In this document: positions 3,245 through 35,465 of the stretch, in pieces
Layout of the letters: each line of letters opens with the position of its first letter
Position numbering within the stretch: position 1 is the stretch's first letter
Virus record (IMG/VR): IMGVR_UViG_3300029922_000169
Coordinates: 1 to 37,585 of that record
Reading direction: 5' to 3' (one strand)
DNA: 37,585 nt
Source: a virus
Made by a program: the position numbers and the translations under genes
Notes under the pieces: generated by a model
Database searches by the model: none
Told to the model about the DNA's origin: nothing
What the model saw: the letters and a program-made list of their open reading frames with translations, nothing else

Positions 3245-3684
3245 AGCAATGCTTCAAATGCAAATCTTTCAAAGAAAATGAAGAATTTCATAATGATAAA
3301 TCTAGAAAAGATGGCCTTTATCCTGTTTGTAAAGTTTGTAAAACCGCAAATGATAGATTAAGACGTAAAAATAATCCAGAAAGATATAGAGAAATCTCAA
3401 ATAAGTGGGATAAGAAAAATCCTGATAAAAAGAGAAACGGCGCTTTAAAAAGAGAATATGGTATAACTCTTGAAGAATATAATGTTATACTTGCTAAACA
3501 GAATAAAAAGTGCGCTATTTGCTTGAGAGATAAATCTGAGTTTAAAGTTTCAATGCATCTAGACCACGACCACATTACAGGAAAAATAAGAGGTATCTTA
3601 TGCGCTTCTTGCAATAGAGTTCTAGGTCTTTTAAAAGATAATCCAGAAAACTTGGAAAGAGCTTTGGTTTATTTGAAAGCGTAA
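3241..3684 (+). CDS. Recombination endonuclease VII family (HNH/His-Me) nuclease
   Basis: 147 residues, close to T4 gp49 (157). The catalytic block HLDHDHITGKIRGILCASCN at about 102-121 matches the endonuclease VII pattern. Zinc-binding CxxC pairs are seen at CFKC and CKVC in the N-terminal region and at CAIC and CASC around the active site. T4 gp49 cleaves Holliday junctions and branched DNA before packaging; related small genes also occur as homing-type endonucleases. The gene overlaps the upstream stop by 4 nt (ATGA), is clearly more AT-rich than its neighbours, and has its own consensus promoter. With a RuvC-like resolvase also present at 10216-10836, a selfish or redundant role is possible. 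Confidence 0.85.
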   Translation: MKQCFKCKSFKENEEFHNDKSRKDGLYPVCKVCKTANDRLRRKNNPERYREISNKWDKKNPDKKRNGALKREYGITLEEYNVILAKQNKKCAICLRDKSEFKVSMHLDHDHITGKIRGILCASCNRVLGLLKDNPENLERALVYLKA

Positions 3685-4064: not shown

Positions 4065-5020
4065 TCATACTTCGAGTAGGCGATCCCCACGTTCGCGTGG
4101 CGAATATTGATGAGAGCGATGCTCTTATGTCTAGAGTTGCTGAGCTAGCGCTTAGCCATAAAGTAGACCGCATCGAACTTCTTGGCGACCTATTCCATAC
4201 CCATGCTATCCTACGATTAGAAGTCCTAGAATTCTGGGATAACTGGCTAGATCATCTTTCTGATATCTGTGAAGTAGTGGTGCTCGTAGGAAATCACGAT
4301 CAAAGCGGTGACTATAACTCTGCAAGTCATGCTCTCAATGTTTTCCAACGTATCAAAAAGAAGAACCTAAGAATCGTAGACGTAGCAATGCCCATCGGCC
4401 CTATCGGTTACATTTCTTATTTCCACGATCCAGCTAAATTTGTGGACATAGCGAATAGTCTGGTAGCCTCTGGCGCCAGAGTACTTGTTTGCCACCAGAC
4501 CTTCAACGGTTCCCGGTTTGAGAGTGGCATGTATGCCCCAGATGGTATCGACCCAGACCTGATTAAAGCTGACCTAATCATCAGCGGCCATATCCATGCT
4601 CAGCAGCGCTTCGGTAAGGTGATCTACCCTGGTACCGCTAGATGGGATACTGCTTCAGACGCCAACCAGCCAAAAGGGCTATGGGTGTTTGAACACGATG
4701 ATCAGACTGGAGCAATCCTGTCAGAAAAGTTCATTTCCACAGAAAACGTCTGTAAGCCTATCATGTCCTTTACTTACAAGGAAGGCGATGCAGGAATGCC
4801 TGATTGGACCCCAGGCGCCAGAGTATCCGTAGAGCTTATAGGCTCATCTGCTTGGTGCGCCCAGGAAAAGGAAAAGCTCAAGGGCAAATGCAGTATAAAG
4901 ACGAAGACACAGAACCGCAAAGCTGGTGATAACTTTGAGCAATTCATGTCCAATCTGTTCGTATCCACTATGGATAAGGAACATTTGATGAAACTCGCAA
5001 AGGAGCTTGGTGTTGTCTGA
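4061..5020 (+). CDS. sbcD: SbcD/Mre11-like (T4 gp47-like) nuclease subunit
   Basis: A 319-residue calcineurin-type metallophosphoesterase. The ordered metal motifs are D8-x-H10 (GDPH), GD at 42-43, GNHD at 77-80, H145 (VCHQTF) and GHIH at 176-179, followed by a GTAR turn at 191-194 typical of the Mre11/SbcD core. It should be the nuclease half of an SbcCD/gp46-gp47 complex that resects double-strand ends for recombination-dependent replication; the ATPase half is at 7265-9310. The start is TTG 4061, overlapping the previous TGA, with an AAGGA SD about 6 nt upstream. The two subunits are separated by four genes, whereas they are usually nearly adjacent. Confidence 0.93.
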   Translation: MIILRVGDPHVRVANIDESDALMSRVAELALSHKVDRIELLGDLFHTHAILRLEVLEFWDNWLDHLSDICEVVVLVGNHDQSGDYNSASHALNVFQRIKKKNLRIVDVAMPIGPIGYISYFHDPAKFVDIANSLVASGARVLVCHQTFNGSRFESGMYAPDGIDPDLIKADLIISGHIHAQQRFGKVIYPGTARWDTASDANQPKGLWVFEHDDQTGAILSEKFISTENVCKPIMSFTYKEGDAGMPDWTPGARVSVELIGSSAWCAQEKEKLKGKCSIKTKTQNRKAGDNFEQFMSNLFVSTMDKEHLMKLAKELGVV

Positions 5021-5420
5021 CAAAATTGATTCCAGAGAGATGCTTCAAAAGATGGCTCAGCTATCTATCTCTACCAATCAGATTAATGAGATTCAGCAAA
5101 AAAATCTCAAAATGTATCCTTTTGTCTTCTTTAATGGCGTCAAGTCTGTTAGTATAGACTATGATTTGACCAATCAGAGCAAGGTCAATTACGATACTAA
5201 CCCTAAGACTATGGAAATTGTCTATAAATTCGACAAGCCCATAATGGACAATTTCAAGGTATCATATAATTTAGAGATTGACGAGACCGAAGACAATTCT
5301 CATATGCCCAAGAGATTTGAAGCATTGGAGAAGGCCATCTGGACCTTATTTTGGAAGGATATCCCGGTGGAAGTGAAGTTCAACGGCAAAGACGTGTATA
5401 CGAGTAAAAAGAATGCCTGA
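5010..5420 (+). CDS. Unknown protein inside the sbcD-sbcC interval
   Basis: About 136 residues, not recognised. The N-terminal third is helical and polar. The rest looks like alternating beta strands (YPFVFFNGVKSVSIDYDL, MEIVYKFDKP), ending in VEVKFNGKDVYTSKKNA. No signal peptide or metal motif is seen. The start is ambiguous: TTG 5007, GTG 5010 and TTG 5013 are in frame, and AAAGGAG at 4999-5005 best fits GTG 5010. It overlaps sbcD by 11 nt and the next gene by 8 nt, so it is co-translated with them. Confidence 0.7.
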   Translation: MLSDKIDSREMLQKMAQLSISTNQINEIQQKNLKMYPFVFFNGVKSVSIDYDLTNQSKVNYDTNPKTMEIVYKFDKPIMDNFKVSYNLEIDETEDNSHMPKRFEALEKAIWTLFWKDIPVEVKFNGKDVYTSKKNA

Positions 5421-17974: not shown

Positions 17975-18174
17975 AATACCTATTAGTTCTGTTACTACTT
18001 GCGGGATGCTCCTCTGAAACTAGGGCATATACCTGTGCCGTTAACCTGAACAGGGGATTCAGCGTTGATTCAACACAAACCGTTGTACTAAATGCAACAT
18101 CAGAGCGACATGCAGATAATCAAGCTAGAGCCTTTTTCCCTGGTGCAAACAACGTAGAATGCGAGGAGTGGTAA
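17971..18174 (+). CDS. Small lipoprotein 2
   Basis: 67 residues from ATG 17971 (overlapping the upstream stop; a longer in-frame reading inside the previous gene has no signal). MKYLLVLLLLAGCSSE contains lipobox L-A-G-C with Cys13. The mature 55 residues have two more Cys (YTCAVNL near the start and VECEEW at the end). The first 17 residues closely resemble lipoprotein 3 (18648-18845), suggesting the signal or the whole gene was duplicated. Confidence 0.75.
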   Translation: MKYLLVLLLLAGCSSETRAYTCAVNLNRGFSVDSTQTVVLNATSERHADNQARAFFPGANNVECEEW

Positions 18175-26585: not shown

Positions 26586-27656
26586 ATGGCTAATAAGTGG
26601 ACTAAACAACTCAGGACTTACGACGATGCTGTGGATTATGATTATGATTCATTCGCTGCAGAAAATTGTTTGTATACCCCTAGCCCATATTACAATTGGA
26701 TTTTTGCTAACAAAAGCAACGGAATTCCAAAAAACGCTTCTCTGCTTCTTTTGTCAGAACAGAAAGCTGGTAAATCTCTGACGTGTTACGCCACAATCTT
26801 GGAAATGCAGCGACGAGATAGAATCGCAAAAATCGCAGAAGACATGAAAGGTCACGCGGTTTATTTCAATACTGAGCTTCGCGGTCAACTACAGCACGAC
26901 ATTTTTCCTGAGATCGACAAGGACTTGATGCATATTTACGACACGAAAGATCCAGTAGAAATCTTCGACCGCATTGAAGACGATATCAAGCCCATGGTAC
27001 AAGATGGTCTGCCACTCCGCATGATTATCATCGATTCCCTTACGAATATTCAAGGCGTAAAGCGCAAAGATGCTGAATCGGTATCCGATCACCTTCGCGG
27101 CGACCACGCTCTTACGGTACAAACTGGACTAGATAAGTTGGTTCCTTTTTGCAAACGCAATAAGATTTTGCTCATCGGTACGTCTCAACTACGTGCCAAC
27201 CAAAAGGCTGCTCCTGGTCAGCCAGACTCTCAAATGGCCGAAGGCTGGATCGTGAAGCATACGTTTGAGTACTTTATCTCCCTCAAGCGTGCAGGCGCCG
27301 CAGAGGACAAGAAAGACTTGGAAGGTAAGACCTTTGAAGACGAATCCATTAAGGATGCCCGCGATCAGCACCTTCTGACCGGCCACAAGATTTACGCAAA
27401 GTGTGAAGCTAACTCTATTGGTCCCCAAGGCCGAGCTGGCGTTTTCACAATGGACTACAAAAAAGGTATCATTAACCAGCACGAAGAGATTTTCTTCCTT
27501 GGTAAAGACACCAACGTAATCAAACTTACTGGTCAGACCTATAGCTTCGGTGGCCAATCGGCCCGTGGTCAAGCAGCCTTCGCGCTCCTGATCCGCGACA
27601 ATCCTGAGCTTGGTAAGGCCATCCTAGAAGAAGTTCGTAAACTAGACGATAAGTAA
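26586..27656 (+). CDS. RecA/UvsX-like recombinase
   Basis: 356 residues. Walker A is the variant SEQKAGKS at 57-64 (canonical GPESSGKT; T4 UvsX is also atypical here). Walker B is MIIIDSL at 144-150, followed by the RecA-type strand IGTSQLR (compare NQ) near 200 and a region LTGHKIYAKCEANSIGPQGR. The enzyme forms filaments on ssDNA and catalyses strand exchange for recombination-dependent replication and repair, with the SSB upstream. GGAGAT precedes ATG 26586. A structured RNA follows its stop. Confidence 0.85.
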   Translation: MANKWTKQLRTYDDAVDYDYDSFAAENCLYTPSPYYNWIFANKSNGIPKNASLLLLSEQKAGKSLTCYATILEMQRRDRIAKIAEDMKGHAVYFNTELRGQLQHDIFPEIDKDLMHIYDTKDPVEIFDRIEDDIKPMVQDGLPLRMIIIDSLTNIQGVKRKDAESVSDHLRGDHALTVQTGLDKLVPFCKRNKILLIGTSQLRANQKAAPGQPDSQMAEGWIVKHTFEYFISLKRAGAAEDKKDLEGKTFEDESIKDARDQHLLTGHKIYAKCEANSIGPQGRAGVFTMDYKKGIINQHEEIFFLGKDTNVIKLTGQTYSFGGQSARGQAAFALLIRDNPELGKAILEEVRKLDDK

Positions 27657-27663
27657 TTGCTCC

Positions 27664-27783
27664 GGTCGCAGCTGGCGAAGAGTGGGGAGTCCTGACGCAT
27701 TGCTATGGACTTAATGTAGCCCCGTTAGGGGGCGAGCGGGTTAAAATCCGTGTGCCGACCACTTCGCAGCGGCCCTCTTTTTT
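27664..27783 (+). ncRNA. Unassigned structured RNA with terminal intrinsic terminator
   Basis: The gap between recA and the next gene folds into a closed, multibranched RNA. The outer stem is GGTCGC (27664-27669) with GCGGCC (27769-27774), continued by GCGAAG (27675-27680) with CTTCGC (27762-27767) and TGG/CCA (27683-27685/27759-27761). Inside are three hairpins: AGTCC/GGACT (27688-27692/27707-27711), GCCCC/GGGGC (27719-27723/27729-27733), and a short GCGG/CCGT stem with a GTTAAAAT loop (27736-27751). A T6 run follows the outer stem. Alternative pairings exist: GGGG at 27684-27687 can compete for the CCCC at 27720-27723, and the loop 27697-27701 can pair with 27713-27717. It fits no tRNA and no riboswitch or ribozyme consensus I can recall. 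Confidence 0.65.
27769..27783 (+). terminator. Intrinsic terminator formed by the closing stem of the RNA
   Basis: The 3' arm GCGGCC is followed by CTC and six T (27778-27783), the standard layout of a Rho-independent terminator. The pairing arm is almost 100 nt upstream, so termination would depend on the whole RNA folding. The SD of the next gene (GAAGGA at 27784-27789) starts right after the T run. Confidence 0.55.
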
Positions 27784-27793
27784 GAAGGAATCT

Positions 27794-28723
27794 ATGGGAA
27801 AAGGAATCATTTTAAGACCAAGAGCAGAAAAGAAAAAGATCCATTCAAGGAATGAATTTGAGCTTTGCTACCTTCGCCATCAGTACATCAGGAAAACCCT
27901 CCACAATCCAACTCCAGAAGAAATGCAGCCATACATGGCAATCGCCAAGCATATGGCTAAGAACACGTTCTTTACCTATCGCAATCTATTCCAGCTGGTC
28001 GGCTTTGAATCAGAAGACCTAATCAGCATCGCCACCGTCCACCTAGTCAGCTTCCTTGGCCTCTTCTCCCTGGATAAGCTTCCAGAGAAGTACAAAGACT
28101 TTTTTGAGGTATACGCTGCAAACAACTCCAAAGAGCCAGACGCAGACCAGATTCTAAATAAGAATAAGGCAAACTGTACCATTTTTCTTAAGCAAAGAAT
28201 GGAAGACGTTGTTCGTATATGCCGACAGAAGGCGCGCAACATCAAAGGTCTTCCAACGGAAGAATATTTCTTCTACTGCGGTGTAGCAAAGCCTCCCAAG
28301 ATTCTCAGAAATCTGGCCGAGAACTATGATAAATACGACTATCGAAAGCTCGATACTGCGGTCTACAAGTCGATCAGAAAGAAAGCTAAGCCAGACGCAG
28401 ACGATCGTATTTTTAGATTCAATGGAAAATATTACGTAGCCGTTCTAGTAGCGCAAAAATCTCTAGGTCTTGAGGATTTAGATGGCGCGGATATGAACCC
28501 ATATGATAGCATCCATAATATGGACCCGGAGAAAGTGCTGTTTTCCATGGAAGACGCTACGGACTGGGAAAAGAAGCAAGAAGAGTTTGATCGTAAGTCC
28601 AAGTTTTCTAAGAGCAATATTATCAAGAAGTTCATAGAAAAGAACAGGGAAAACAAGGACTACAGAGAAGAACTAAGGACAGCGAGAAGATTACTTAAGA
28701 GTCTGGAGAAGAATAGTGTCTGA
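27794..28723 (+). CDS. Second sigma region 2-like protein
   Basis: 309 residues from ATG 27794, which has GAAGGA 5 nt upstream; an ATG-initiated extension would reach into the structured RNA. Residues about 48-90 (PYMAIAKHMAKNTFF, then FESEDLISIATVHLVSFLGL) follow the sigma region 2.1-2.2 pattern. About 50 residues later comes FLKQRMEDVVRICRQKARNI, like the region 2.3-2.4 helix. The C-terminal third is basic and helical and may contain a further DNA-binding part. It may be a phage sigma or a late-transcription factor like T4 gp55. The match is by pattern and moderately convincing. Confidence 0.5.
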   Translation: MGKGIILRPRAEKKKIHSRNEFELCYLRHQYIRKTLHNPTPEEMQPYMAIAKHMAKNTFFTYRNLFQLVGFESEDLISIATVHLVSFLGLFSLDKLPEKYKDFFEVYAANNSKEPDADQILNKNKANCTIFLKQRMEDVVRICRQKARNIKGLPTEEYFFYCGVAKPPKILRNLAENYDKYDYRKLDTAVYKSIRKKAKPDADDRIFRFNGKYYVAVLVAQKSLGLEDLDGADMNPYDSIHNMDPEKVLFSMEDATDWEKKQEEFDRKSKFSKSNIIKKFIEKNRENKDYREELRTARRLLKSLEKNSV

Positions 28724-35275: not shown

Positions 35276-35465
35276 AAATGGCAAATCCTTTGAACAGCCT
35301 TCCGAGACTCCCGAAGAGATCGTAGGTCTATTGGGTAATATTGGCAATCGCCCAGATATTCGTGCCGTACAAGAACGTCAGGTGAAAGAAATACAGAAGC
35401 TTATAGATGAAGCTTATGCTAGAGGTCATAAAAACGGCTTCTATCTTGGAGATTATCGTGAATAA
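35268..35465 (+). CDS. Unknown 65-residue protein
   Basis: Starts at GTG 35268 within the end of the preceding gene. Pro/Glu-rich N-terminus followed by a helix (VQERQVKEIQKLIDEAYARG) and an aromatic end GFYLGDYRE. It overlaps the next gene by 8 nt. No family recognised. Confidence 0.55.
   Translation: MNRNGKSFEQPSETPEEIVGLLGNIGNRPDIRAVQERQVKEIQKLIDEAYARGHKNGFYLGDYRE

Follow-up and report, generated by a model that had tools for sequence, protein, structure and literature searches.

A putative structured RNA downstream of a phage uvsX-like gene and a family of covarying RNAs that share its junction in related phages

The uvsX–P0002 locus

The DNA considered here is an IMG/VR virus record of 37,585 bases, analysed as a whole and referred to below as the window; 98.5% of it is coding by crude ORF tiling. 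Among its replication and recombination genes, a gene for a UvsX/RecA-like recombinase is followed on the same strand by a gene for a 309-residue protein, P0002 (Table 1). The two are separated by 137 nt, counted from the stop of the uvsX-like gene to the ATG at 27794. This gap contains no credible ORF, and its GC content (0.58 over 27657–27751) compares with 0.447 across the window. The crude tiling leaves three gaps of at least 70 nt (17975–18174, 35276–35406 and 27657–27793); since listed ORFs cover the first two, the third is the only convincing noncoding gap. The initial annotation, made from the letters of the DNA, had called this stretch exceptional, and the ORF check agrees.

The uvsX-like gene is kept in all relatives compared, and P0002 adjoins it in most of them. 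Sequence searches of Pfam, PHROGs and the PDB gave no match to P0002. Its AF2 model is of moderate confidence (pLDDT 79, pTM 0.49), and a fold search with this model gave no match at E ≤ 0.001. The earlier description of the downstream gene as sigma-like is therefore unsupported by either sequence or fold searches.

Table 1. Features of the gap, its flanking genes and selected family A copies. Positions are those of the window unless a locus is named.
Feature	Position	Strand	Basis
UvsX/RecA-like recombinase gene, upstream	26586..27656	+	PHROG 97 UvsX-like recombinase, E 4e-16
Noncoding gap with putative RNA	27657..27793	+	ORF positions, GC content
Closing stem, 5' strand	27664..27685	+	27664–27669, 27675–27680, 27681–27685; AGCUG 27670–27674 bulged in MFE
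Closing stem, 3' strand	27755..27774	+	MFE, duplex test, pair probabilities
Hairpin 1 (27687–27692/27707–27712)	27687..27712	+	MFE, pair probability ~0.68
Alternative hairpin (27691–27697/27723–27729 and 27702–27706/27716–27720)	27691..27729	+	pair probability ~0.31
Hairpin 2, GCCCC-GUUAG-GGGGC (27719–27723/27729–27733)	27719..27733	+	MFE
Alternative terminator-like helix AGGGGGC (27727–27733)/GCCCUCU (27772–27778), into U run	27727..27778	+	forced fold
Hairpin 3 (27736–27741/27746–27751)	27736..27751	+	pair probability 0.82–1.0
T6 run, putative transcription end, 3 nt past closing stem	27778..27783	+	sequence
Shine–Dalgarno-like AAGGA of next gene	27785..27789	+	sequence
P0002, 309 aa	27794..28723	+	no Pfam/PHROG/PDB match; AF2 model
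Family A example copy	L139:3528–3707	−	alignment A4
Family A example copy	L103:9891–10112	−	alignment A4
Family A example copy	L019:4564–4743	+	alignment A4
Copy with T-arm-like hairpin	L109:5900–6104		variable domains
Copy with T-arm-like hairpin	L115:2574–2781		variable domains
Copy with T-arm-like hairpin	L037:4554–4713		variable domains
Copy with T-arm-like hairpin	L018 ~4930–5090		by eye, besides the three counted copies

Predicted fold of the gap RNA

The MFE structure of the gap RNA (−46.4 to −47.5 kcal/mol) has an interrupted closing stem that encloses three hairpins, as had been proposed. The outer helix of the stem is formed by GGUCGC (27664–27669) and GCGGCC (27769–27774), the inner one by GCGAAG (27675–27680) and CUUCGC (27762–27767), with a short extension to 27686/27755. 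The four outermost pairs have probabilities of ~0.8, and 27676–27677/27765–27766 reach ~0.97. As a whole, the 137 nt show no excess stability over dinucleotide shuffles (−47.5 versus −46.6 ± 3.9, z −0.24). The end-to-end duplex of −22.8 kcal/mol is matched by 3.1% of shuffles (p ~0.03); among 750 window segments of equal length, no case was seen.

This fold has a competitor, an alternative hairpin that excludes hairpins 1 and 2. A switch had been suggested before, based on pairing of GGGG (27684–27687) with CCCC (27720–27723); the probability of that pairing is below 0.25. Because the alternative hairpin reaches ~0.31, two competing folds are plausible, at pairs other than those originally named.

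Terminator-like and promoter-like signals

The T6 run does not follow the closing stem directly, as the initial annotation had it, but is separated from it by CTC (27775–27777); the Shine–Dalgarno-like sequence does lie immediately behind the T run, as described. A simple scan of the gap found no classic intrinsic terminator, that is, a short GC-rich hairpin flush with the T run. The only candidates that could serve as terminators are the long-range closing stem, with its 3-nt spacer, and the alternative helix AGGGGGC/GCCCUCU, whose forced fold is predicted at −39.1 kcal/mol, a loss of 7 kcal/mol against the MFE (−46.4 kcal/mol). A promoter search upstream of the gap gave a weak result, with one 10/12 site within uvsX where 0.7 are expected.

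These features raise the question of a cis-acting attenuator, in which alternative pairings around 27691–27733 would control the formation of a terminator ahead of P0002, made up of the U run and either the closing stem or AGGGGGC/GCCCUCU. The T run directly precedes the Shine–Dalgarno sequence of that gene, the mutually exclusive folds have comparable probabilities (0.69/0.41 versus 0.31), and there is a second terminator-like helix; the copies of the RNA family found at the junction in relatives (family A, see below) likewise lie just before P0002. However, no switch is conserved across relatives, some P0002 homologues have no leader at all, and the GGGG/CCCC pairing is improbable. In addition, the junction RNAs of relatives belong to a family that occurs before many unrelated genes. 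An attenuator is a serious rival to the reading preferred below, albeit an unlikely one.

Comparison with known RNA classes

The RNA had previously been assigned to no known class. At Rfam thresholds this is right; a covariance-model search of the window returned no family at its threshold. In a permissive Rfam search, the matches of the gap to the ZTP riboswitch and to a CRISPR repeat are at chance level.

The best structural match is the ZTP (pfl) riboswitch, RF01750. Its full-length alignment (1–86) scores 16.9 bits, far under the gathering score of 39, with E ~1 over all Rfam families and 0.037 if ZTP alone is sought in the window only. A divergent ZTP-like riboswitch would consist of P1 (27658–27669/~27732–27742), a joining segment CUGGCGAA, a P3-like GCCGACC...GGC, a pseudoknot GCGAAG/CUUCGC and the U run, which is the motif order of the class. 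GCGAAG and CUUCGC are complementary where the known pseudoknot lies (J1/2–L3), GCCG and CGGC can pair as P3, and in the known switch P3 and the pseudoknot bring about strand displacement (PMC10085676). Against this, the nested closing stem takes the same bases, P1 and P2 are poorly formed in the gap, and nothing comparable is found at the junction in relatives; moreover, the downstream gene shows no sign of a role in purine or one-carbon metabolism. The resemblance is treated as chance, and a riboswitch of this kind is considered very improbable.

Like bacterial Y RNAs (YrlA), which act with Ro60, the window RNA has a closing stem, and its GGCGAAGAG stretch resembles a Ro-binding motif. No Rfam Y RNA match is found in the gap. 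The Y RNA reading is disfavoured because none of 27 records contains a Ro60/TROVE gene (PF05731) above the cut-off; the window is itself a fragment. With tRNA and tmRNA, the window RNA shares a T-loop-like UUAAAAU stretch in hairpin 3, but it lacks acceptor and anticodon arms; ARAGORN finds nothing in the window, and there is no Rfam match. The GOLLD and ROOL RNAs are several hundred nt long. As with these ornate RNAs (PMC12286853), the case is one of phage-associated structured noncoding RNA of unsettled function; the gap RNA has no Rfam match.

The junction in related phages

Searches with UvsX and P0002 yielded ~30 distinct related phages. In some of these (L022, L023/L024, L030 and L031, with 25–36 nt) and in most of the more distant relatives, the junction has no room for an RNA. 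Since several relatives thus have no gap between uvsX and P0002, P0002 needs no leader RNA. Other relatives carry noncoding, stem-closed segments at the junction, several of which share an obvious motif. This motif defines a new family of covarying phage RNAs, for which family A is used as a working name. Three progressively broader covariance models of the family (R1, R2 and R3) were employed; junction copies in relatives reach 20–98 bits with R1 or R2.

With R1, family A is found at the junction of L019 (97.9 bits), L016 (92.9), L026 (80.9), L037 (47.5) and L005 (20.4). In L002, the relative with the most similar UvsX (77% identity), two tandem copies lie there (28.4 and 25.0 bits with R2), and L018 has a weak match (14 bits, E 0.17, R2). 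In L109, a copy precedes the P0002 homologue, with no uvsX detected upstream. In total, at least six relatives carry family A at this junction.

Other occupants of the site were also observed. Noncoding junction segments unmatched by the models are found at L006:4045–4253, L007:4105–4542, L008:4042–4202, L028:4542–4635 and L237 ~3533–3635; the junction RNAs of L006, L007, L008 and L028 give no score with the family A models. The L028 segment gives a tidy four-way junction, cloverleaf-like but with no tRNA signatures. L143–L148 (for example at L145:2188 and L148:5650) carry a related RNA, named 'group B', that contains UUGGGA...CUAAACAAYCCGAG; group B sites lie between uvsX and P0002 in L002, L018 and L021 (behind an additional gene), and those of L145 and L148 have tRNA genes nearby. 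In Myxococcus phage Mx1 (OR576727.2), the same gene neighbourhood has an unannotated gap of 445 nt with a tRNA-like stretch (L052:7830–8274), which is not matched by R1 or R3.

Taken together, the comparisons show the uvsX–P0002 junction to be a hotspot for stand-alone structured RNAs, which related phages carry, exchange or lose.

A DNA-level element, such as a replication or recombination signal, might also account for the gap. It lies among replication and recombination genes, and two relatives (L003/L004; L003:2453–3070, −) have, by inspection, a GIY-YIG-like homing endonuclease ORF at the junction, on the opposite strand. The elements of the relatives, however, are RNAs: their changes are compensatory, promoter-like boxes and T runs accompany them, and at the junction they lie on the coding strand; a role at the DNA level is scarcely probable. 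It and the ZTP-like reading are regarded as minor.

Family A, a covarying phage RNA family

A DNA pattern derived from the junction motif was scanned over IMG/VR and returned 50 stretches; 36 distinct copies were aligned after chance matches and near-duplicates had been dropped. A later alignment (A4) holds 64 copies, and the family has more than 60 members.

The layout is P1 / GCGUGGAAAGCUGUGG...CCACUGGAGACACGC / 3' hairpin / P1 / T run. The closing stem P1 has 7 bp and is followed by CGGCGUGGRAAGCUGUGG, a hypervariable domain and CCACUGGAGACACGC. Core pairs are P2 (GCGUG/CACGC) and P3 (GUGG/CCAC), with an internal loop of GAAAGCU and UGGAGA. The 3' part comprises a second hypervariable domain and a 5-bp hairpin with an 8-nt loop (aGUMGCGn), flush with P1 and often followed by a T run. 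In A4, CGGCGUGGAAAGCUGUGG...CCACUGGAGACACGC is near-invariant.

Among the 64 copies, 98.4% of the cells are paired, and double changes occur in 19 of the 21 pairs. The covariation score is 0.572; shuffles give 0.163 ± 0.009, and slid controls do not exceed 0.09. These pairing counts lean towards structure, since complementarity was used to place P1 and the hairpin and since the model guided the fitting of A4. The first of these biases does not extend to the variation in P2 and P3, both of which were fixed by sequence alignment. In loci covering many copies, the RNA has no Rfam 15 match at gathering thresholds, and one copy (L139) has none up to E 5. No description of the family was found in the literature covered, which excluded subscription journals and preprints.

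Family A also occurs away from the junction, singly or in tandem, before many unrelated genes. Three copies each are found in G018, G012 and G026, two each in G024 and G003, and two or more in G010 and G011; in G012 and G018 the junction is empty of RNA, and the family lies elsewhere in these two genomes. A −10-like box lies just upstream of 20 of 66 copies (8.8 ± 2.7 expected), and four or more T residues lie just downstream of 33 (8.4 ± 2.3 expected). Copies in metagenome-assembled bacterial bins (L153, L161 and L165, from Cyclobacteriaceae, Deltaproteobacteria and Dependentiae MAGs) may be hints of hosts, or phage contigs contaminating the bins.

Tandem arrays or close pairs with differing inner domains were seen in L195:277–1409 (G018), L194 (G012), L201 (G026), L108, L110, L118 and L122; such arrays can be likened to small RNA gene clusters. 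Hairpins similar to a tRNA T-arm (UUCRANY loop, at least 4 bp) are present in the variable domains of 3 of the 64 copies, where 0.1 are expected (Table 1). A tRNA-like element that lacks a normal anticodon arm is present in L018 as well.

The window RNA and family A

The window RNA occupies the same junction as family A, on the same strand, and is likewise multibranched, with a long closing stem (pair probability ~0.8) and, after CTC, a T6 run. It differs in having neither the P2/P3 core nor a flush 3' hairpin; GCGUG/CACGC and GUGG/CCAC with GAAAGCU and UGGAGA are absent from 27657–27793, as is a 5-bp hairpin that abuts P1 and has a loop of 8 nt. With filters off, the models give −0.9 (R1), 2.4 (R2) and 1.4 bits (R3) across the gap, by which membership of family A is ruled out.

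The gap has no DNA relatives in sequenced phages. A search of IMG/VR for its closing-stem pattern returned an identical contig (L243) and L242/L244; the latter were rejected as homologues, being copies of one portal-like gene in which the match lies inside the coding frame. As no homologue beyond the identical contig was found, there is no covariation evidence for the window RNA. The comparison of the junction across ~30 relatives supplied neither a homologue of this RNA nor covariation for it.

It is conceivable that the gap holds what is left of an RNA of the family A type, decayed or degenerate and retained simply to terminate transcription between uvsX and P0002. L002, the nearest phage by UvsX, has its two family A copies at the corresponding place; the window keeps a closing stem and a T run but not P2, P3 or the 3' hairpin, and the z-score of the whole fold is near zero. 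On the other hand, no core sequence is recognisable (at most 2.4 bits), and the gap is GC-rich, with a coherent closing stem (p 0.03). Such a remnant is rather improbable; together with the attenuator it is nevertheless a serious rival.

Proposed nature of the window RNA

Most likely, the window RNA adds to the stand-alone phage RNAs of this site or is a decayed example. That it is a stand-alone noncoding RNA, one more occupant of the uvsX–P0002 hotspot, is the tentatively preferred reading, which is given somewhat less than an even chance. The initial annotation had listed a stand-alone phage sRNA among its options. This is indirectly supported by the covarying RNAs at the junction in relatives, which elsewhere have promoter-like and terminator-like signals of their own; the window RNA itself fails all three models and lacks homologues and covariation. 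By analogy with the junction RNAs of relatives, we infer that it is transcribed, terminated and functional.

As a stand-alone RNA, it would be ~110–120 nt long (about 27664–27783) and would probably be transcribed with the uvsX operon. It would fold back via the interrupted closing stem around the three hairpins and end at the stem and U run. Rather than switching the next gene, it would probably act in trans during infection; a structured scaffold that binds a host or phage protein is a guess.

A broader proposal is that the window RNA, the unclassified junction RNAs of L006, L007, L008, L021 and L028, and family A form one fast-diversifying class of stand-alone RNAs. Its members would share a fixed frame of closing stem and T run and, in most cases, a small protein- or ribosome-binding core, with freely exchangeable inner domains. 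Exchange would take place at the uvsX hotspot and tandem multiplication elsewhere, with conflict with hosts as the probable driving force. This unification is put forward as speculation and is held with little confidence.

Significance

Taken alone, the window RNA adds one to the orphan phage RNAs that lack homologues, and its value is as a pointer to family A. This widespread family, newly recognised here, is strongly supported: its core hardly varies, two domains are hypervariable, some copies form tandem arrays, and many have a promoter-like box of their own. It would supply a covariance model for the annotation of such RNAs, and it makes the role of stand-alone structured RNAs in virulent phages testable by expression, pull-down and deletion.
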